Below are positions 8,656 to 37,351 of a stretch of 64,000 bases of DNA, in pieces. Source of the stretch: Erythrobacter sp. QSSC1-22B (GTDB taxonomy: Bacteria > Pseudomonadota > Alphaproteobacteria > Sphingomonadales > Sphingomonadaceae); contig NZ_LZRP01000006.1 in assembly GCF_001678665.1 (NCBI RefSeq), positions 186,001 to 250,000 on the forward strand, written 5' to 3'. Position 1 is the stretch's first letter, and each line of letters starts with the position of its first letter. The notes under the pieces were generated by a model. It was not told where the DNA came from, searched no databases, and saw only the letters and a list, made by a program, of their open reading frames with translations. Position numbers and translations under genes: made by a program.

Positions 8656-8818
8656 GTTGAGACCCTAATTAGCCGGTGCAGAATGCACCTAACGCAGCGC
8701 TAACCCTGCTTTGTGACGCCCACGCTACCAATCGTTGAAATTCCGTTTCGGGAAATGCCGCAAGGGAATGGCGATGCGGGGCGCAGTGGCAATTTTGCCA
8801 ACAAGTAGCGTTCGGCAC

Positions 8819-9655
8819 GGCTCTGTCAGAGCAAATGCACCGGGTGGTAAGGAGTGGCGGGTCAGGACGGTCCGATGCCCTGCCCAAAAAAGCCAGCCCG
8901 CCCGTTTCGCTACTTCAATTCGTCGCCGGAGGTGATCCGGCTGGTAGTGATGATGTACGTCCGCTTCCCGCTGTCGCTGCGCAATGTGGAAGACCTGCTG
9001 GCGGAGCGCGGCATCGACATCTGCCACGAGACGGTACGGCACTGGTGGAACAGGTTCGGCCCGCTGTTTGCTGCTGACATCCGCCGACAGCGGGTAAGCC
9101 GCATGCGAGGATTCCGCCAATGGCGTTAGCATCTCGACGAGGTCTACGTGAAGATCAACGGAAAGATGCATTACCTCTGGCGAGCGGTGGATCAGGAGTG
9201 CGAGGTGCTTGAGAGCTACGTCACGAAGACCCGGGACAAGGCCGCAGCGCTCAGATTCATGAAGAAGACGCTCAGGCGCCACGGTTCGCCCTCCATGATC
9301 ACCACCGATGGTCTGCGATCCTACAAGGCAGCGATGAGCAAGCTCGGCTGCGAGCAGAAGCAGGAGATTGGCCGTTGGGCCAACAATCGGGTTGAGAACT
9401 CACACCTGCCGTTCCGACGACGAGAGCGGGCGATGCTGCGCTTTCGACAGATGAGCGCGCTACAAAAGTTCGCCTCCGTTCATGCCAACGTCCACAATCA
9501 CTTCAACTCCGAACGTCACCTGATCGACCGAAAAACTTACAAGACCCGTCGCTCGGCCGCCCTGACCGAGTGGCAGAACCTTATGGTCTGAACCAGGCCG
9601 GGGAAGGGGATAGCCGCGCCGATCGGAGACAAGTTGCGATTAGATTGACAGCACC
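8819..9655 (+). mobile_element. IS6-family insertion sequence, about 837 bp
   Basis: Length and gene content fit IS6 elements. The outer ends are GGCTCTGTCA on the left and, as reverse complement, GGTGCTGTCA on the right: eight of ten bases match, and GG...CTGTCA agrees with the usual IS6 ends. The eight bases outside (CGGCAC side versus GTCCCGAG side) do not match, so no target duplication is visible. That fits deletion or recombination next to the element, and the right end lies inside a truncated MBL/rhodanese gene. The transposase carries a nonsense codon, so the copy is probably dead. Confidence 0.75.
8875..9591 (+). pseudogene. IS6-family transposase interrupted by an in-frame TAG
   Basis: The frame starts with MPCPKKPARPFRYFNSSPEV and holds the usual helix-turn-helix region (DICHETVRHWWNRFGP). 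The DDE catalytic residues are all visible: Asp in HLDEV, Asp in ITTDG, Glu in NRVENSH. At 9127-9129 a TAG stands where family members have TGG (W-H-L-D-E), and the frame is otherwise open on both sides. One base change therefore explains the inactivation. Restart at the ATG at 9148 would lose the first catalytic Asp. Confidence 0.85.
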
Positions 9656-10493
9656 GTCCCGAGGCATAGGCCATGGGTTCGCGGATATCGACAAGGTGGG
9701 TTGCGTTGCTTTCGCGCAATTGCGCCAGGCTCAGATTGCTCGGTCTTGCGATGCGGGGCGCCGGTGTGCCGCCTTCGAGATTGAGGCGTTCCATCAATCG
9801 GAAATACGGCGGCTGATAGTGATTTTCTGCCACCTTGAAGTCGATGAAAGCGTCCCGGCTTGCGAACTGGAGACGCGGATTGTTGGTGCGCTCGTGACCC
9901 ACGGTCGAGAATTCGCGTTCGGCCATGCCGGAGCCACAGACCGACCCTGCGCCATGCGCGGGATAGATGATGGTTTGGTCGCCAAGGGCCAGGATCTTGT
10001 GCAGCGAATCCCACAACAGGCCGGCTACCTCACGCTTGCGGTCGGGGTAGAAATCGGTGCGGCCGACATCGCCGACGAACAGGGCGTCGCCGGTAAAGAC
10101 GCCCACCGGACCCTTCGGATATTCGCGATCATGGAGCACGTAGGCCAAGTTGTCGTCGGTATGACCCGGCGTTTCCATCGCCTCGATCACGAGCTGGCCG
10201 ATTTCGAACCGATCGCCTTCGCGGGCGGTCTCGGCGTAAACCACCTCGCCCCCCGGATTGGGACCATGAAGAACCTTCGCACCGGTCCAGCCCGCCAGCA
10301 CGGGCGCGCCCGAGACCAGATCCTCGTTGCGGTGAGTTTCGAAGATGTGGGTGATCGCAAGGCCTTCGGCTCTCGCCTTCTCGACATAGATCTCGCAATC
10401 GCGCCGGGGATCGATGACCGCCGCCTGTCCTCCCGAACCGATCAGGTAGGACAGATGGGACAGTCCCGGGGTCTTGATTTTCTCAAGCAACAT
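9656..10493 (-). pseudogene. MBL-fold/rhodanese (CstB-like persulfide dioxygenase-sulfurtransferase), 3' end removed by IS6
   Basis: The gene encodes about 279 genuine residues: a metallo-beta-lactamase domain of the glyoxalase II/ETHE1 type. THRNEDLVSG replaces the usual THxHxDH, as in CstB-like proteins; METPGHTDD, FTGDALFVGDVGRTDF and YPAHGAGSVCG follow. Then comes the start of a rhodanese domain (THLVDIREPMAYASG). At 9655 the sequence passes into the IS6 end; about 40 foreign residues follow to a stop at 9537. The family normally runs to some 450 residues with the catalytic rhodanese Cys, which is lost here. The MBL half might still fold and act. The context of sulfide genes agrees with a persulfide role. 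Confidence 0.8.
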
Positions 10494-10669
10494 GGCGGCA
10501 TTCCCTTCGAACTGGAGTTTTCCTGTCGTGATTGAAGTGGATGAGGGGGCGCGGCGTTCCCACGTCCCCCTTATCGGTCAATTCACCTTGGTTGTCCGCA
10601 GACCTGCAATCCGCCTTGCATCGCCCGCGTAAACCGCTTCCATCACAGGGTGGCTGAGAACAGTGGGCA

Positions 10670-12492
10670 TCAGATCATGCCTCTGGGCATGTCGGCAGGC
10701 GGCACCGCTTCGGATCCGCCATTCATCGACAGCTCGTGAAACGCCCGGTTCTGCGAAAGGAACACCCGGCCGTTGAGTTCTTCGACGAAGGGCGTGCGCA
10801 ACAGGCGATCCATAACCGGCCCCTTGACCTCCGACAGGTGCAGGCCGATCCCCGCATCGCCCAGCCGGTGATTGATCGCCTCGATGCTCTCGAGGCCCGA
10901 TGCGTCGATTTCGTTCACGGCGCTGCACATCAGAATCACATGCCGGACCTCGGGCTGCTCTGCCACACGCTCGAGGACGTATTCCTCCAGCCAGCGCGCG
11001 TTGAGATAGGTCAGGCTTTCGTCGATGCGGATCGACAGCACATGGGGAACGGTGAAGACCTTGTGCCGCTCGACATTGCGGAAGTGCTCGGTCTCCGGGA
11101 CCCGCCCTACGATCGCCGCGTGCGGGCGGCTGGCGCGCCACAGATAGAGCAGCAGGCCGACTGCGACCCCCGCGATGACGCCCATCTCGACGCCGACGAG
11201 AAGCGTCACGACGATGGTTGCCATATGCGCCGCGAAATCCGCCTTGGAATAGCGCCACAGCAGTCGGGGTGTCTTGAGATCGACCAGGCTCAGCACGGCA
11301 ACGATAATCGTCGCTGCGAGCGTGGCGATGGGCAAAGAAAACAGCAGTGGCGTCAGGAACAGGGTCGCGAGCGCAATGCCCATTGCGGTGTAGGCCCCCG
11401 CCGCAGGGGTTTGCGCGCCGGCATCGAAATTGACAGCCGATCGCGCAAAGCCACCGGTGACCGGGTAGCCGCCCGAGAAAGCGCTGGCGATATTGGACGC
11501 GCCAAGTCCGATCAGTTCCTGGTCCGGGGCGATGCGTTGGCGGCGCTTGGCGGCGAGGGTCTGCGCGACGGAAACGCTCTCGACGAAGCCGATGATCGAA
11601 ATGAGCAGGGCCGGTACCCAAAGCTGCTCGATCAACGCCAGGTCGGTCGAGGGCAGCGCGAAGGGCGGGAGCCCCTGCGGTATCGCCCCGACGAGATTCA
11701 CGCCTCTCGCTCCGAGATCGAAGATGATGGCCGCCAGGATGGTGGCGGCCACGGCAATCACGGGGCCGCCCTTGGCACCGATGTCGGCTAGGCGAGGGGG
11801 GAGGCCAATGCGTACAAGCAACGGCTTGAGGCCCTTGCGCACCCAGAACAGAAACGCTGTTGCCGGGATGCCGACGGCCAGGGTCCAGAGATTGATCCCC
11901 CCGATCGAAGCCGCAAGCGAGCCGAGCATATCGGGCCAGTTGTCCCCGCCCGCGGAAGTGCCGAGAATATGCTTGATCTGGCTGGTCGCGATTAACAGTC
12001 CGCTTGCGGTGATGAAGCCGCTGATGACCGGGTGCGAGAGCAGATTGGCGAGGAAGCCGAGGCGCAACAGGCCGAGAATCGCGAGCATGACGCCGGACAG
12101 CGCCGCCAGCGTCATGGCCGCTTCCAGATACAGTTCCGTACCCTGCGCGGCCACTGCACCCGCCGCGCTGGCTGTCATCAGCGAAAGGACCGCGACCGGC
12201 CCGACCGCCAGCGTCCGGCTGGTGCCGAAGATGGCATAGGCGATCAGCGGCAGGATCGACGCGTAGAGCCCGACTACCGGCGGCAAGCCAGCCAGCAAGG
12301 CATAGGCAAGACTTTGCGGGATCAGCATGATCGTGACGATCACCGCGGCGACGAGATCACTGGTCAGTATCGAGGAATTGTAGCCCCGGCCCCATTCGAG
12401 GATCGGGAAATATTGGGCCAGGACGCCGCCGCGCGTGCCCTGTCCGGGTGCCAAGGCGCCCGTCGTTCCTTGCTCGGGGCCGCCAGCCGGCA

Positions 12493-12493
<1 letters not shown>
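10670..12493 (-). CDS. SulP family anion permease with STAS domain
   Basis: A 607-residue membrane protein. The SulP transmembrane core (12-14 helices) begins near residue 35 (VAAVIVTIMLIPQSLAYALLAGLPPVVGLY) and includes SIIGFVESVSVAQTLA. A C-terminal STAS domain follows (IRIDESLTYLNARWLEE; MCSAVNEIDASGLESIEAI). SulP proteins carry sulfate, bicarbonate or related anions; here the sulfur genes favour sulfate or another sulfur oxyanion. The ATG at 12493 overlaps the stop of the sulfide:quinone reductase gene as TGATG, so translational coupling is likely. Confidence 0.92.
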
Positions 12494-13725
<1,232 letters not shown>

Positions 13726-33032: not shown

Positions 33033-33860
33033 CTACCCGGGCAGGGTCTTGGCGAGTCGGTCGAACGATTGGAGCCTGGCAAGCATTTCGGGCATATCCT
33101 TTAGCGGCACCATATTGGGCCCGTCGCTTGGCGCGACATCGGGATTTTCGTGGGTCTCCACGAAAAGCGCAGCCACTCCCACGGCAACCGCGGCACGCGC
33201 GAGCACAGGCACGAATTCCCGCTGCCCCCCCGATCGCTCGCCTTCTCCTCCGGGCTGCTGCACCGAATGCGTCGCGTCGAAGACGATGGGGAAGCCGGTC
33301 TCGGCCATGATCGGCAGCGAACGCATGTCGCTCACCAGCGTATTGTAACCGAAGCTGGCGCCGCGCTCGCATAGTAAGAGCCGCTCGTTCCCGGTGGCGA
33401 CGACCTTCGCGGCGACGTTCTTCATATCCCACGGTGCCAGGAACTGGCCCTTCTTGATGTTGATCGCGCAGCCTGTTTCGGCGGCAGCGACCAGCAAGTC
33501 GGTCTGGCGACAGAGGAACGCGGGAATCTGGAGCACGTCCACGGCCTCGGCCACCGGAGCGCACTGTGCGGCATCATGAACGTCGGTGATCACCGGGCAT
33601 CCGAAGCGTTCGCGGACTTCTGCGAATACCTCCAGCGCCTTGTCCAGGCCAATGCCGCGCGGCGATCCGATCGAGGTGCGATTGCCTTTGTCGAAGGATG
33701 ATTTGTAGATGAGGCCGATGCCGAGCGTTTCGCACATCTCGTGAAGCGCAGCAGCCATCTCGAGAGCGTGAGCGCGGCTCTCCATGGCGCATGGTCCCGC
33801 GATCAGGACGAATGGCCTGTCGTTGGCAATCTCCAGCGCGCCTACTGTTACGGTCTTCAT
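33033..33860 (-). CDS. kdsA: 3-deoxy-8-phosphooctulonate synthase, metal-dependent type
   Basis: A 275-residue enzyme condensing arabinose 5-phosphate with PEP to Kdo-8-phosphate. Visible: [87 protein letters not shown] and HSVQQPGG. Cys24 in GPCAMES marks the metal-dependent class, since the E. coli type has Asn there. A GTG at 33869 could add three residues. Last gene of the operon 37351-33033; the gap to the fusion gene is 12 bp. Kdo is not expected in most sphingomonad envelopes, which makes this locus notable. Confidence 0.95.
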
Positions 33861-33872
33861 CGCTGTCACTCC

Positions 33873-35183
33873 TCAGAACGTCCCACACTCGGCGAGGATC
33901 TCGCCGATGTCGCGACCGCGCGCCGCGTACATTCGGATCCGCGCTTCATTGCTCATCACGTCCCAGGCGGCGGCTTCGACTTCGTCCCAGCGCTCTTTCG
34001 GAACGACAATCACGCCATCTTCGTCGGCAAATACGATGTCGTCGTTGCAGACCCGTACCCCCCCCATTTCGATCGGGCGGTTCATGGCTCGGACAGTGCC
34101 TTCCAGCTTGATGTCGTTGCAGTTGCTGGCGCGTGCATAAACCGGGAAACCCAGGGCCCGGACATCGGCGGTGTCTCGCGTCGCTCCGTCGATCACGGCG
34201 CCGACCGCGCCCGAACGGACCGCCAAATTGGCGTTGAGATCCCCGAAATAGGCGCGGTCTGGCACATCGGTCGCCACCATGATCACGTCCCCTGAGCGTA
34301 CAAACCGATAGGAATCGAGGGCGTTGTAGATACCCTTCCAGGCATCCGGTGGGTCGTCAGGGCCAAGCCGACGCAGCTCCAGCGTCTTGGCCCGGCCAAG
34401 CAGCTTGCCGCCACTGGTGGGGCGAAGACCGGGTGCAAGGACCGCGGGAATAGCCAGGTCCTTGCAGATATCCGCTAGGACTGTCGAAGAAAGGTGCGAG
34501 ATCATTGCCCGAAATCGCGTCACTTGCGTCGCGCGCTGGCCGGCTGCGACGGTCTCGGCGATGATGAGATCGGAACCGCGATTGATGTCGATCTGCTCGA
34601 TGGGATCGAGGTCGAAAAGGATCGGCCGAGAACCGTAACGGCGCGTCGGAACTCCGCCGCTTGCGGACCGGCGCACGATGTAGAGGCTCATGGCCTCGAT
34701 GACCGTCGCGGGCAGATCCACACTGTTGGGAATGCGGCCGGTGCCATAGGCAGGCGCGCTGCCGTCCCAGCAATATTGCTTTGCACGGGTAACCGCCACG
34801 AGGCTATCGGCGGCCGGATCGGCCAGCAGTGCCTCGATTGCGCGCGAAATAGTTGCGGCAGAGACGAAGGGCGCTGTGCACAGCAGTTGAATCCAGACGT
34901 CCGCGTCGGGACGCTGGCTGCATTCCCAGGCAAACATTTCATGACCGTCGGTAGCGTTGCTGGCGAGCGCCGCAGGGCGCGCCAGCCGCGAGATCGGCAG
35001 GTCGGTCGCCAAATCAGCCAAAGCATCGGACTCGGTGTCGAGGCACACTTCGGTGACAGCAGGGCACTCGAGCGCCTGACGCAGCTTGCGCTTGAAAAGA
35101 TAGTCGCCGTCGAGGACAGCGATATTCTTGTCGGGAATCCGCTCGCTATGGCCCTTGGCGGGTACGAACACGACGATATTCAT
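33873..35183 (-). CDS. Fusion of a CMP-ulosonate (NeuA/KdsB-like) cytidylyltransferase with an RraA/HMG-aldolase-like domain
   Basis: A 436-residue two-domain protein. Residues 1 to about 220 are a cytidylyltransferase: VPAKGHSERIPDKN (residues 7-20, the CTP loop), QLLCTAPFV, and PIEQIDINRGSDLIIAE, the usual NeuA C-terminal motif. Residues about 225-436 are RraA-like: LSSTVLADICKDL, LGRAKTL, SGDVIMVATD, and D315-x20-R336-D337 (in FGDLN ... DGATRD), exactly the metal/pyruvate motif of HMG and CHA aldolases, followed by GFPVYARA and EDGVIVVPKE. The first domain should activate a 2-keto-3-deoxy acid with CMP. The second resembles enzymes that split or form 4-hydroxy-2-oxo acids. The role of the fusion is unknown to me. 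Confidence 0.9.
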   Translation of the reverse strand: MNIVVFVPAKGHSERIPDKNIAVLDGDYLFKRKLRQALECPAVTEVCLDTESDALADLATDLPISRLARPAALASNATDGHEMFAWECSQRPDADVWIQLLCTAPFVSAATISRAIEALLADPAADSLVAVTRAKQYCWDGSAPAYGTGRIPNSVDLPATVIEAMSLYIVRRSASGGVPTRRYGSRPILFDLDPIEQIDINRGSDLIIAETVAAGQRATQVTRFRAMISHLSSTVLADICKDLAIPAVLAPGLRPTSGGKLLGRAKTLELRRLGPDDPPDAWKGIYNALDSYRFVRSGDVIMVATDVPDRAYFGDLNANLAVRSGAVGAVIDGATRDTADVRALGFPVYARASNCNDIKLEGTVRAMNRPIEMGGVRVCNDDIVFADEDGVIVVPKERWDEVEAAAWDVMSNEARIRMYAARGRDIGEILAECGTF

Positions 35184-35186
35184 CGG

Positions 35187-36179
35187 TCAGCCCTGCAGCA
35201 GATCATTGGCGTGGAGCATGCCGCGAAGCCTGCCCGCTCCGTCCACGACGGGCAGAACAAGCCAACCGGCGGAACCTGCGCTTTGGATCAGCAGAGCGTC
35301 GCCGACGTTGGCTTCGATCCCGATCACCCGTGGGCTGGGCTGCATGATCTCGCCGGCGGTGGCAGTGTGCACAGCGCAATTAGCCTGAACGTGCCGACGC
35401 ACATCCCCGTCGACAACCAGCCCGAGCAGGCGGCCATCCTTATCGACCACGCAAGCGGCGCCCATCCGTTTGCTGGACATCATCGTAAGCAGATCCACGA
35501 ATGAAGCCGAGGGTGCGAGCTTGGGCAGATCGTCGCCTTCGCGCATGAAGCTGGCGACCGGAATCATCTGACGGCCGAGCAGCCCTGCGGGATGATGACG
35601 AAGGAAATCCTCCCGCGTGAAGCCACGCGTCCTGCTCACCGCGACCGCGAGCGCATCTCCGATCGCGAGATGCAGTGTCGTGCTCGATGTCGGTGCCATG
35701 CCGATGTGGTCCGCTTCGCGCGCGACCTCGGCTGGAATAAGGTGGTCGACCGCGCGTGCCAGCGGTGACTCGGAGCGCCCGATGATGCCCACCAATGTGC
35801 AGCCACGGGCTTTCAGGGGTGGGACGATCCGAACGATTTCGTCGGTGGAACCGCTGTTCGATAGAATTATGACAACGCTACCCGATTCCACCGCACCCAG
35901 ATCGCCGTGCGCTGCTTCGGCCGCGTTGACGAACAGCGCGGCCGTGCCGAGGCTGGAGAACGTCGCCGCTAGCTTGGCAGCGACATGTCCCGATTTGCCG
36001 ACACCGAGCAGAACAATCGGCCTTTCTTGCCGGGCAAGCAGCGCGACGGTCTCGGCCACCGCGGCGAAGCTTCCATGCAGGAAGCTCGACAGCGCATTCC
36101 GCTCGGCCGCGATAACATCGCAGAACCACGCGGTCGCCAGATCGGGCGAGGCCGGAGATATGGCGGTCAGTGCATTCAT
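35187..36179 (-). CDS. kdsD: Arabinose-5-phosphate isomerase (KdsD/KpsF/GutQ family)
   Basis: A 330-residue protein: SIS domain (LLGVGKSGHVAAKLAATFSS, EAAHGDLGAVE, IILSNSGSTDEI) and two CBS domains (from about residue 210: ASFMREGDDLPKLAPSAS... and ATAGEIMQPSPRVI...). It converts ribulose 5-phosphate to arabinose 5-phosphate, the sugar substrate of KdsA. Start MNALTAISP at 36179 overlaps the upstream gene's stop by four bases; the stop is 3 bp before the fusion gene. Its presence with kdsA and the cytidylyltransferase makes a full route to a CMP-activated ulosonate. Confidence 0.92.
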   Translation of the reverse strand: MNALTAISPASPDLATAWFCDVIAAERNALSSFLHGSFAAVAETVALLARQERPIVLLGVGKSGHVAAKLAATFSSLGTAALFVNAAEAAHGDLGAVESGSVVIILSNSGSTDEIVRIVPPLKARGCTLVGIIGRSESPLARAVDHLIPAEVAREADHIGMAPTSSTTLHLAIGDALAVAVSRTRGFTREDFLRHHPAGLLGRQMIPVASFMREGDDLPKLAPSASFVDLLTMMSSKRMGAACVVDKDGRLLGLVVDGDVRRHVQANCAVHTATAGEIMQPSPRVIGIEANVGDALLIQSAGSAGWLVLPVVDGAGRLRGMLHANDLLQG

Positions 36180-37351
36180 CGGTTCACCTGTGACGCTGCA
36201 TCGAAGCGCGCGAAACTCTGCTCCCAGCGAGCGGGGTCGACGGGGTTGTCCAGTCGGCCAAGCAGTGCCGCCGCCGAGAGATCGGGATCGTTCGGATCGA
36301 GCAGACTGTTTGCGATATGGAACGCAAACCATCGGCGGGCGTCGCCGCGATCGGCCGCGATCGCGCTACCTTGTGCCACGGCGGGCAGGAAGCTTGCGAG
36401 GTCCGCATAGGCGTTGAGCCATTCACCGGTCTTGAACCGCGACCGCCGAAGCATCGGTGTGCCGAAGAACGCCGCGGCCGAATAGACCTTGGAATCGCCC
36501 ACCATCATCCCGTCAGCGTCGCGCGCCAGCAGCATCGTGGTATTTTGGCCAGTTGGGTCGGTCCGGGGGAGCAACTTCATTCGCGAACCATGCAAAGCAA
36601 CCTCCGCCTCGAGAGCGCTGTTGTCGACATGCTGCTCGTTGAGCGGATGATTGGTGATCGCCAGGAAGAACGAATCGTCGATGCTTGCAGCCAGTTCGGC
36701 GATGAGGCGATGATTGGGCACTGCGCCAATGCGGTGCTTCGTGAAGAAGTTCTCCTGATGCTCATATTCGAGCGGGAGTGCGAGGATGGGTCGGTCGGTG
36801 GGGAGCGCCGCCCATTTTTGGAAAGTGTTGCGCATCTCCCGGCTTGGCTCAGCGAGACATGCCAACGAATTCCATACCGGTGCGATAAGACGATCAAGCT
36901 CTGCCCATTCGGCTGTGCCGAGGTCGGGCAGCAAGCCGTGATCGAAAGGTTGCTCCTGCAGGACGATCCAGCTGGGAGGAAACGACAGCGGCGATGCACC
37001 GCCTTCCGCCATGTACCGCACGACGCCCGGGAACTCCCGCACCGTGTTGCAGTCTGCCGAGCGAGACAGCACATAGTCCGGCGCCAGGTTTCTGACGAAT
37101 TCGACGATGCCGGCACGCTCGACGGCGTCTGTCCGCATGGTTGGGTGATTTTCGTCGTCCGCGATGTGCCACGCTATCTGTGGCAGATCCGCGCAAGCCG
37201 CGAGCTCACGGTTGCCGATCCCGGTGCCGCGCCACGGAACCGGTACCAGCACGTGCACTTCGTGGCTGCTCGCCATGCAGCGGATGATCGGTTCGACGAT
37301 ATGGTCGAACCACCAGGGCGTGATCACCGGAAGGTAGAAGAGAATCTTCAC
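36176..37351 (-). CDS. Putative glycosyltransferase (possibly ulosonate/Kdo transferase), no family assigned
   Basis: A 391-residue soluble protein without signal peptide. Start MKILFYLPVITPWWFDHIVEPII is like the first Rossmann strand of GT-B enzymes. The C-terminal half has features of nucleotide-sugar binding: PILALPLEYEHQENFF, ITNHPLNEQHVDN, and DGMMVGDSKVYSAAAFFGTPMLRR, which resembles the donor-site helix seen in capsule-type transferases (KpsS/KpsC class). This is resemblance by eye only. First gene of the four-gene operon, so it probably uses the CMP-sugar made by the other three. A capsule-modifying or export-linked protein is an alternative. Confidence 0.6.
   Translation of the reverse strand: MKILFYLPVITPWWFDHIVEPIIRCMASSHEVHVLVPVPWRGTGIGNRELAACADLPQIAWHIADDENHPTMRTDAVERAGIVEFVRNLAPDYVLSRSADCNTVREFPGVVRYMAEGGASPLSFPPSWIVLQEQPFDHGLLPDLGTAEWAELDRLIAPVWNSLACLAEPSREMRNTFQKWAALPTDRPILALPLEYEHQENFFTKHRIGAVPNHRLIAELAASIDDSFFLAITNHPLNEQHVDNSALEAEVALHGSRMKLLPRTDPTGQNTTMLLARDADGMMVGDSKVYSAAAFFGTPMLRRSRFKTGEWLNAYADLASFLPAVAQGSAIAADRGDARRWFAFHIANSLLDPNDPDLSAAALLGRLDNPVDPARWEQSFARFDAASQVNR

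Follow-up and report, generated by a model that had tools for sequence, protein, structure and literature searches.

The window, meaning the whole 64,000-nucleotide stretch of Erythrobacter sp. QSSC1-22B DNA that was analyzed, contains a tight minus-strand operon that begins with a glycosyltransferase-like gene and continues with KpsF/KdsD, a gene for a cytidylyltransferase fused to an RraA-like domain, and KdsA:

36176-37351, minus strand: putative CMP-sugar glycosyltransferase (GT-B-like model; invariant His235-Pro236)
35187-36179, minus strand: KpsF/KdsD arabinose-5-phosphate isomerase with SIS and CBS domains (TIGR00393, 241 bits against a cut-off of 203.7)
33873-35183, minus strand: fusion protein of 436 aa, cytidylyltransferase plus RraA-like domain (open frame; Pfam PF02348 and PF03737)
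34500-35183, minus strand: N-terminal cytidylyltransferase domain of the fusion, residues 1-228, border approximate (Pfam, model and fold search, NeuA-side clade)
33876-34499, minus strand: C-terminal RraA-like domain of the fusion, residues 229-436, border approximate (Pfam; top PDB match 3noj)
33033-33869, minus strand: KdsA, Kdo-8-phosphate synthase (TIGR01362, 402 bits against a cut-off of 314)

The minus-strand frame of the fusion runs through 436 codons free of inner stops, and the plus-strand frame at the same position is interrupted by stops. An earlier note on this DNA had read a single 436-residue, two-domain protein here, strand unstated, in a Kdo-type operon; the translation bears out the protein and places it on the minus strand, and the operon is borne out by KdsA and a KpsF/KdsD-like gene in the same orientation (TIGR01362, TIGR00393). 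KdsD, KdsA, and a CMP-transfer enzyme, the combination by which a Kdo operon was recognized, are all present in the window. The fusion starts 3 nt after KdsD, and KdsA follows the fusion after 3 nt if it starts at GTG or after 12 nt if it starts at ATG. KdsD was scanned as a longer listed ORF from 36332; comparison with a relative (L052) points to the Met at 36179 as the likely start, which the glycosyltransferase stop overlaps by 4 nt. A search of the genome at E<=1e-40 detected no other KdsA, and KdsC (TIGR01670) gave no match there at E<=1e-5.

The glycosyltransferase-like protein has no match in Pfam or NCBIfam, and no PDB relative was found by sequence profile. Its model (pLDDT 91.6) is GT-B-like in appearance, and the top TM-score among the 50 matches listed (0.49 both ways) is to the beta-Kdo transferase domain of WbbB (5fa0), a partial match that stands eighth by E-value with an rmsd of 9.0. 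The His235-Pro236 pair is invariant in 21 sequences; an SK pair is invariant too. According to the available part of the source, a (K/R)XHP motif is common to sialyltransferases and retaining Kdo transferases (PMC12887879); in the five sequences aligned here, the K/R is not retained. The protein may represent a new family of CMP-ulosonate transferases.

In the fusion, Pfam finds CTP_transf_3 (PF02348) at residues 5-133 (E 3.1e-14, 53.8 bits against a cut-off of 22.6) and the RraA-like family (PF03737) at residues 237-393 (E 3.5e-28, 99.2 bits against a cut-off of 24.5), so that both proposed domains, including the RraA-like similarity, exceed the curated cut-offs. The NCBIfam matches are all far under their cut-offs: NF005442, which scores highest for the RraA-like domain (85.5 bits against 593), and LigK/PcmE aldolase models at the C-terminus, and PseF and KdsB models at the N-terminus. 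An AlphaFold2 model of the fusion built from 58 sequences is confident (mean pLDDT 94.6, pTM 0.89). The top Foldseek match is HMG/CHA aldolase 3noj, along with other RraA proteins and CMP-sialate synthetases, and the first CMP-Kdo synthetase appears only at rank 35. Compared with seven relatives, dN/dS (Nei-Gojobori) is 0.07-0.14 for the cytidylyltransferase domain and 0.07-0.15 for the RraA domain, rough values given that 10 of the 14 dS values exceed 1; purifying selection on the two domains is similar.

Relatives were identified in 139 of 181 candidate stretches from named genomes, and the best 80 of these 139 were analyzed. By record taxonomy, these 80 comprise 60 Pseudomonadota, 10 Fidelibacterota, 4 Bacillota, 3 Acidobacteriota, 1 Planctomycetota, and 2 unassigned; the Fidelibacterota labels belong to MAGs that may be mis-binned because their neighborhoods resemble Rhodospirillaceae loci. 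Together with the window and three others, the set comes to 84 loci carrying the fused match (L003 and L055 share a genome, as do L032 and L102), and 81 of the 84 proteins are longer than 380 residues. Recurrence of the same fused match at 84 loci excludes chance joining or read-through and reveals a widespread family, not a one-off. Copies with both domains are nevertheless rare in sampled genomes of the window's own family (2 of 199, window included), and a class-wide sample gave 3 of 385 genomes with copies covering both domains (window included, one partial). The plasmid match H1 (query 88-423), a candidate distant fusion, was rejected as a 223-aa stand-alone frame resembling HMG/CHA aldolase (named by eye).

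Among 50 IMG/VR stretches, 38 proved to be relatives, yielding 35 viral loci; the match extends from residue <=10 to residue >=425 in 34 of the 35, and the remaining one (L200) is split. Neither the window protein nor a viral copy matched any of 50,697 records of cultured phages at E<=1e-5, and PHROG gave no match at E<=0.001. Four phage-type genes lie beside two viral copies, with RecA and DnaB_C over cut-off and gp32 and DNAG_N below. GT29 sialyltransferase-family genes also occur in viral contigs: one (L191, 5400-5999) is directly beside the fusion, with a GT29 match that exceeds the cut-off, and the other (L200, 6705-7457) adjoins the split cytidylyltransferase.

Residue conservation was counted in 81 bacterial rows (84 loci less three rows shorter than 380 residues) and in 33 viral frames longer than 340 aa from the 35 viral loci. 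Residues 311-318 were a search pattern of both the named-genome and the IMG/VR scans, with residues 1-9 (named genomes) and 98-106 (IMG/VR) as second patterns; conservation at pattern residues, Leu101 and Asp/Glu315 included, is therefore partly by construction. Three features of the cytidylyltransferase domain were located:

35124-35165, minus strand: CTP loop, residues 7-20 (FVPAKGHSERIPDKN region), with K10, R15, K19, and N20 (conservation)
34881-34883, minus strand: Leu101, where NeuA has its catalytic Gln (Gln104 in N. meningitidis; alignments)
34581-34583, minus strand: Asn201, replacing the NeuA metal ligand Asp211 (alignments with 1qwj and two NeuA/PseF-like rows)

The CTP loop lies where the earlier note had described it, and K10, R15, K19, and N20 are present in all 81 bacterial rows and in 32 of the 33 viral rows (gap in one). 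At the Leu101 position, a pattern residue for which murine CMAS (1qwj) and two NeuA/PseF-like rows were aligned, Leu occupies 81 of 81 bacterial rows. Residue 201 is Asn in 80 of the 81 bacterial and 28 of the 33 viral rows, the other five viral rows having Asp. From the set that characterizes NeuA-type enzymes, namely Gln104 and the Asp209/Asp211 pair, the fusion retains only Asp209, as Asp199. The metal site of the meningococcal enzyme includes Gln104 and both Asp, and D211A lowers kcat 15,000-fold in that enzyme, as reported in the available part of the study (PMC2901514). The altered site may bind its metal in another way, or the domain may be slow or have a different mode of action; the changed residues L101 and N201 count against a reading in which the domain is an active synthetase.

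In the cytidylyltransferase tree, the fusion groups with NeuA-like rows and the KdsB side separates at 100/100; several branches are long in this tree, as in the RraA tree discussed below. The KdsB side derives from 12 supplied loci, 9 of which yielded a frame by the motif rule, and all 5 of these 9 rows that were tested scored over a KdsB cut-off. For the fusion, the best KdsB model gives 38.4 bits against a cut-off of 193. A canonical KdsB identity is thus ruled out by tree and cut-offs. The fusion had been called a NeuA/KdsB-like synthetase; its place in the CMP-sugar synthetase family, on the NeuA side, stands, and the KdsB side falls away (tree, fold search). The cytidylyltransferases of L035 and L004, a separate CTP_transf_3 subgroup, have the shifted Gln as in the fusions but both metal Asp residues.

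The RraA-like domain contains the following predicted active-site features:

34173-34241, minus strand: D315-x20-R336-D337, equivalent to D102, R123, and D124 of HMG/CHA aldolase (alignments)
34113-34115, minus strand: Asp357, where the HMG/CHA aldolase pocket has Gly144 (conservation)
33945-33947, minus strand: Glu413, equivalent to the metal-binding Glu199 of HMG/CHA aldolase (alignment)

Translation and alignments confirm that the D315-x20-R336-D337 motif is intact, as had been claimed. R336 and D337 are invariant, occurring in every one of the 81 bacterial and 33 viral rows; residue 315, within a search pattern, is D in 62 and E in 19 of the bacterial rows. E413 is present in 80 of the 81 bacterial rows (gap in one) and in all 33 viral rows; its pairing with Glu199 was taken from one of two alignments, the other, pairwise, being gapped there and offset by 2. 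For the P. putida aldolase, R123 is reported to be essential and the metal to be bound by D124 and E199 (PMC5065237, available part). The PF03737 score, the D-x20-R-D motif, and the metal Glu assign the domain to the RraA-like/class II pyruvate aldolases; it lies outside the HMG/CHA aldolase (LigK/PcmE) equivalog, at 80.7 bits for TIGR02798 against a cut-off of 304.5. We have high confidence that the predicted RraA catalytic site is intact in the fusion.

Asp357 is present in 81 of 81 bacterial rows, 33 of 33 viral rows, and both split RraA proteins (see below), at a position that adjoins the Thr145/Lys147 anion site of HMG/CHA aldolase. It was considered as a signature exclusive to CMP-linked RraA and dropped, being present in ordinary RraA too: 2 of 30 ordinary RraA proteins, a redundant set, have Asp there, as do 9 of the 10 rows that another 17 loci yielded, in varied gene contexts (frame calling missed the RraA in 7 of these loci). 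Thr335 was seen in CMP-linked RraA alone (0 of the 30 ordinary proteins and 0 of the 10 further rows).

Among the 84 fusion loci, a KdsD-like gene is near in at least 38, KdsA in at least 24, either in at least 42, and both in at least 20, all lower bounds given the simple longest-frame gene calls and limited flanks. Neither gene lies within the flanks examined at 42 of the 84 bacterial and 35 of the 35 viral loci, which counts against the pathway that we favor below. The row in L113 (Paenibacillus amylolyticus) consists of an ABC-2 transporter, a Wzt-like ATPase, the fusion, KdsD, KdsA, a HAD protein, and Capsule_synth (PF05159); that in L107 (Defluviitaleaceae MAG) consists of the fusion, KdsA, KdsD, and a HAD protein, and in the genome search both HAD stretches exceed the KdsC cut-off. 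In L116, KdsD and a Capsule_synth (PF05159) protein are encoded downstream. Among sphingomonads, TIGR01670 (KdsC) had no match at E<=1e-5 in any of the 7 genomes searched, another point against the favored pathway. At nine sphingomonad loci, an inositol-monophosphatase-family gene lies immediately beyond the site of KdsA and in the other orientation, for example, L044 10144-10956 (minus strand), with KdsA called in 7 of the 9 and Pfam run on one; the window has none at that site. It may be a Kdo-8-phosphate phosphatase in genomes of this group, in which KdsC was not detected.

Each of the 28 genomes searched (27 with the fusion and G578 with a split form) encodes one KdsA at E<=1e-40, which in three Firmicutes genomes sits inside the fusion locus. 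The LPS Kdo transferase WaaA (PF04413) was not found in 14 of the 28 genomes, including the window's own, 9 sphingomonads, and the 3 Firmicutes tested; therefore, the sugar in these organisms presumably serves a glycan other than LPS. Three WaaA-less genomes (G582, G583, and G590) encode KdsB over its curated cut-off in addition to the fusion, yet one KdsA each, which fits two activated sugars from one Kdo source or plain redundancy. Of 19 genomes, three (Paenibacillus and two sphingomonads) have no CTP_transf_3 match at E<=1e-5 other than the fusion, which is thus the likely activating enzyme there. The window genome encodes one other CTP_transf_3 protein, PseF-like and below cut-off. This second cytidylyltransferase (L002, contig C2, 244174 region) adjoins NeuB-like, acetyltransferase-like, and aminotransferase-like frames, named by eye, and its own frame is seemingly interrupted near the start (assembly or real).

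Two loci encode the domains as separate proteins. In L161 (genome G578, 8677-12509, minus strand), a pentose-phosphate-epimerase-like protein, a DAHP-synthase-like protein, a cytidylyltransferase joined to a HAD part, and a stand-alone RraA are encoded in a row; the HAD part falls narrowly short of the KdsC cut-off (100.9 bits against 106.95), and the four genes possibly make up a CMP-heptulosonate pathway. The viral contig L200 encodes a cytidylyltransferase, GT29, a stand-alone RraA, and NeuB. The fusion and both split cytidylyltransferases form one clade (96/94). In the RraA tree, the fusions and split forms fall on one side at just 88/83, together with L022 and L028, ordinary RraA proteins that carry Asp at the 357 position and have UxuA or an enolase-superfamily protein as neighbors. 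These two families include sugar-acid dehydratases. A search of 398 genomes for further split forms with the L034 RraA as query, conducted without a positive control, gave no match at E<=1e-25. The synthase differs from one context to another (KdsA, DAHP-synthase-like, NeuB), but the RraA partner stays; therefore, the substrate feature that it recognizes is probably the shared 2-oxo-3-deoxy-4-hydroxy acid core (C1-C4). Action on this core, as originally suggested, is supported in that the domain accompanies this type of cytidylyltransferase whatever synthase adjoins.

A role of the fusion in a CMP-ulosonate pathway can be assigned with high confidence. As for the reaction, our preferred reading, to which we give a probability of roughly 0.38, is that the fusion is a bifunctional CMP-ulosonate synthetase in which the RraA domain is a C4 epimerase acting before activation, for a glycan other than LPS. 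KdsD would provide arabinose-5-phosphate, from which KdsA, with PEP, would make Kdo-8-phosphate, and a phosphatase would release the free sugar acid. The RraA domain, as a metal-dependent pyruvate-enolate enzyme, would act on the free open-chain 2-oxo-3-deoxy-4-hydroxy acid, cleaving and re-forming the C3-C4 bond with net inversion at C4. It would do so before activation because retro-aldol cleavage requires the keto acid in its free form; altering the stereochemistry once the sugar is activated, which had also been envisaged, is not reasonable by this route, C2 presumably being locked as a glycosyl phosphate. The N-terminal domain would then couple the sugar acid to CMP, this transfer would draw the epimerization equilibrium forward, and the product would be the activated C4 epimer of Kdo (3-deoxy-D-gluco-octulosonate), the substrate of the adjoining glycosyltransferase. 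In favor of this reading are the tight operon, the retained RraA residues, the similar selection on both domains, the single KdsA per genome, the genomes in which WaaA was not found, the split relatives, and Asp357 next to the anion site, although its occurrence in ordinary RraA speaks against it. FlDet, of the RraA family, offers a precedent in using a 2-keto-3-deoxy sugar acid (PMC8563752, available part). Net inversion captured by CMP transfer also seems to us the most sensible role for a domain that shares its chain with the enzyme consuming the sugar. The activity of both domains and the substrate are inferred along with the C4 inversion, and confidence in the epimerase step is low to moderate. 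Known enzymes with the RraA fold either cleave their substrate (HMG/CHA aldolase) or dehydrate and decarboxylate it (FlDet; PMC8563752, available part). Epimerization by an RraA protein was not found in the literature searched, which counts against the preferred reading, and no C4 epimer of Kdo was named among the matches listed in the open-licence literature (titles and abstract starts).

The same residues could instead serve to destroy the sugar. As a true aldolase, the RraA domain would cleave unactivated ulosonate to pyruvate and an aldose, for proofreading or recycling, and the activated sugar would be ordinary Kdo. This is compatible with HMG/CHA aldolase 3noj as the best solved-structure match, with the retained metal and enolate residues, and with nearby glycosyltransferases that suit Kdo, namely Capsule_synth (PF05159) in L113 and L116 and the GT-B-like protein with its highest listed TM-score to WbbB. 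We consider it unlikely because it would amount to a futile cycle within an enzyme that consumes the same sugar, and because the viral copies retain the RraA domain with no obvious catabolic need. Aldol chemistry is reversible, and the domain could also run in the direction of synthesis, from pyruvate and an aldose, making KdsA needless; loci with neither KdsA nor KdsD in their flanks (42/84 bacterial and 35/35 viral) would be explained in this way. We give this idea very little credence as the main route, contrary to one suggestion of the earlier note, considering that all 28 genomes tested encode a KdsA, the three Firmicutes inside the fusion locus.

A further possibility is an FlDet-type dehydratase that would remove the C4 hydroxyl of the ulosonate, with a deoxy/keto variant being activated. 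The precedent, FlDet, is an Mg2+-activated RraA-family enzyme that dehydrates and decarboxylates 2-keto-3-deoxy-glucarate and, in the available part of the report, was active on just one of the 2-keto acids tested (PMC8563752). The enolate chemistry would be similar. However, Kdo lacks the second carboxylate that the FlDet reaction removes, and no operon-shared partner gene for a dehydrated sugar was seen, many neighbors being without annotation; this reading appears improbable. Roughly as doubtful is a non-catalytic RraA domain with a structural or regulatory part, such as an oligomer scaffold, for which E. coli RraA, which binds and modulates the RNA degradosome (PMC5065237, available part), provides the model. 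A scaffold would not need R336, D337, and E413, yet these are retained across phyla and in viral contigs (81/81 and 33/33 rows for the first two, 80/81 and 33/33 for E413).

Extending the preferred C4 epimerase reading beyond the window, we tentatively envisage, as an on balance rather unlikely possibility, an undescribed CMP-ulosonate branch with an RraA C4 epimerase and its own cytidylyltransferase that would place C4-epimeric Kdo on non-LPS surface glycans of sphingomonads and Gram-positive bacteria, bacterial viruses making this sugar as well, with the split forms acting likewise on heptulosonates and sialic-acid-like sugars. RraA-like proteins are common and mostly unassigned, and the conserved fusion links one RraA branch to a definite pathway. 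If the RraA domain alters the sugar, several phyla would have an unrecognized activated sugar in their surface glycans, and viruses of bacteria would have it too; if it destroys the sugar, this would be a new form of quality control. A plain KdsB or NeuA label is unsuitable for such proteins, and KdsA/KdsD beside the fusion should not be read as a sign of LPS.

Both domains are of known kinds, and it is the conserved fusion and its pathway role that appear undescribed in the open-licence literature searched; no description of the RraA-cytidylyltransferase architecture and no characterized protein possessing it was found there, in line with what the earlier note had surmised. The RraA domain shares with HMG/CHA aldolase the fold and the residues D102, R123, D124, and E199 (D315, R336, D337, and E413) but is joined to a cytidylyltransferase, has Asp357 in place of Gly144, and belongs to a sugar-acid biosynthesis operon rather than to aromatic degradation. 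Like the NeuA CMP-sialate synthetases (1eyr, 6ifd, 1qwj) and the CMP-Kdn synthetase PpNeuA (9t4z) of PF02348, the N-terminal domain has the common fold, the CTP loop, and the equivalent of Asp209 (Asp199); in contrast to NeuA, Gln104 and Asp211 are replaced by Leu101 and Asn201, and the partners are KdsA and KdsD instead of NeuB. KdsB has the same pathway position adjoining KdsA and KdsD but lies on the other side of the tree (100/100), and KdsB models score the fusion far under their cut-offs. FlDet likewise belongs to the RraA family and works on a 2-keto-3-deoxy sugar acid but, in the available part of its description, is catabolic and stand-alone, with an aldarate substrate (PMC8563752). 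Gram-positive Kdo genes, including kpsC, are known from the Kdo gene island of Bacillus coahuilensis, where one gene is named kdsB (PMC4744853, available part). Finally, the bifunctional hexulose-6-phosphate synthase/RraA proteins (NF005442) also join RraA to a sugar enzyme, with a partner domain that differs from that of the fusion.
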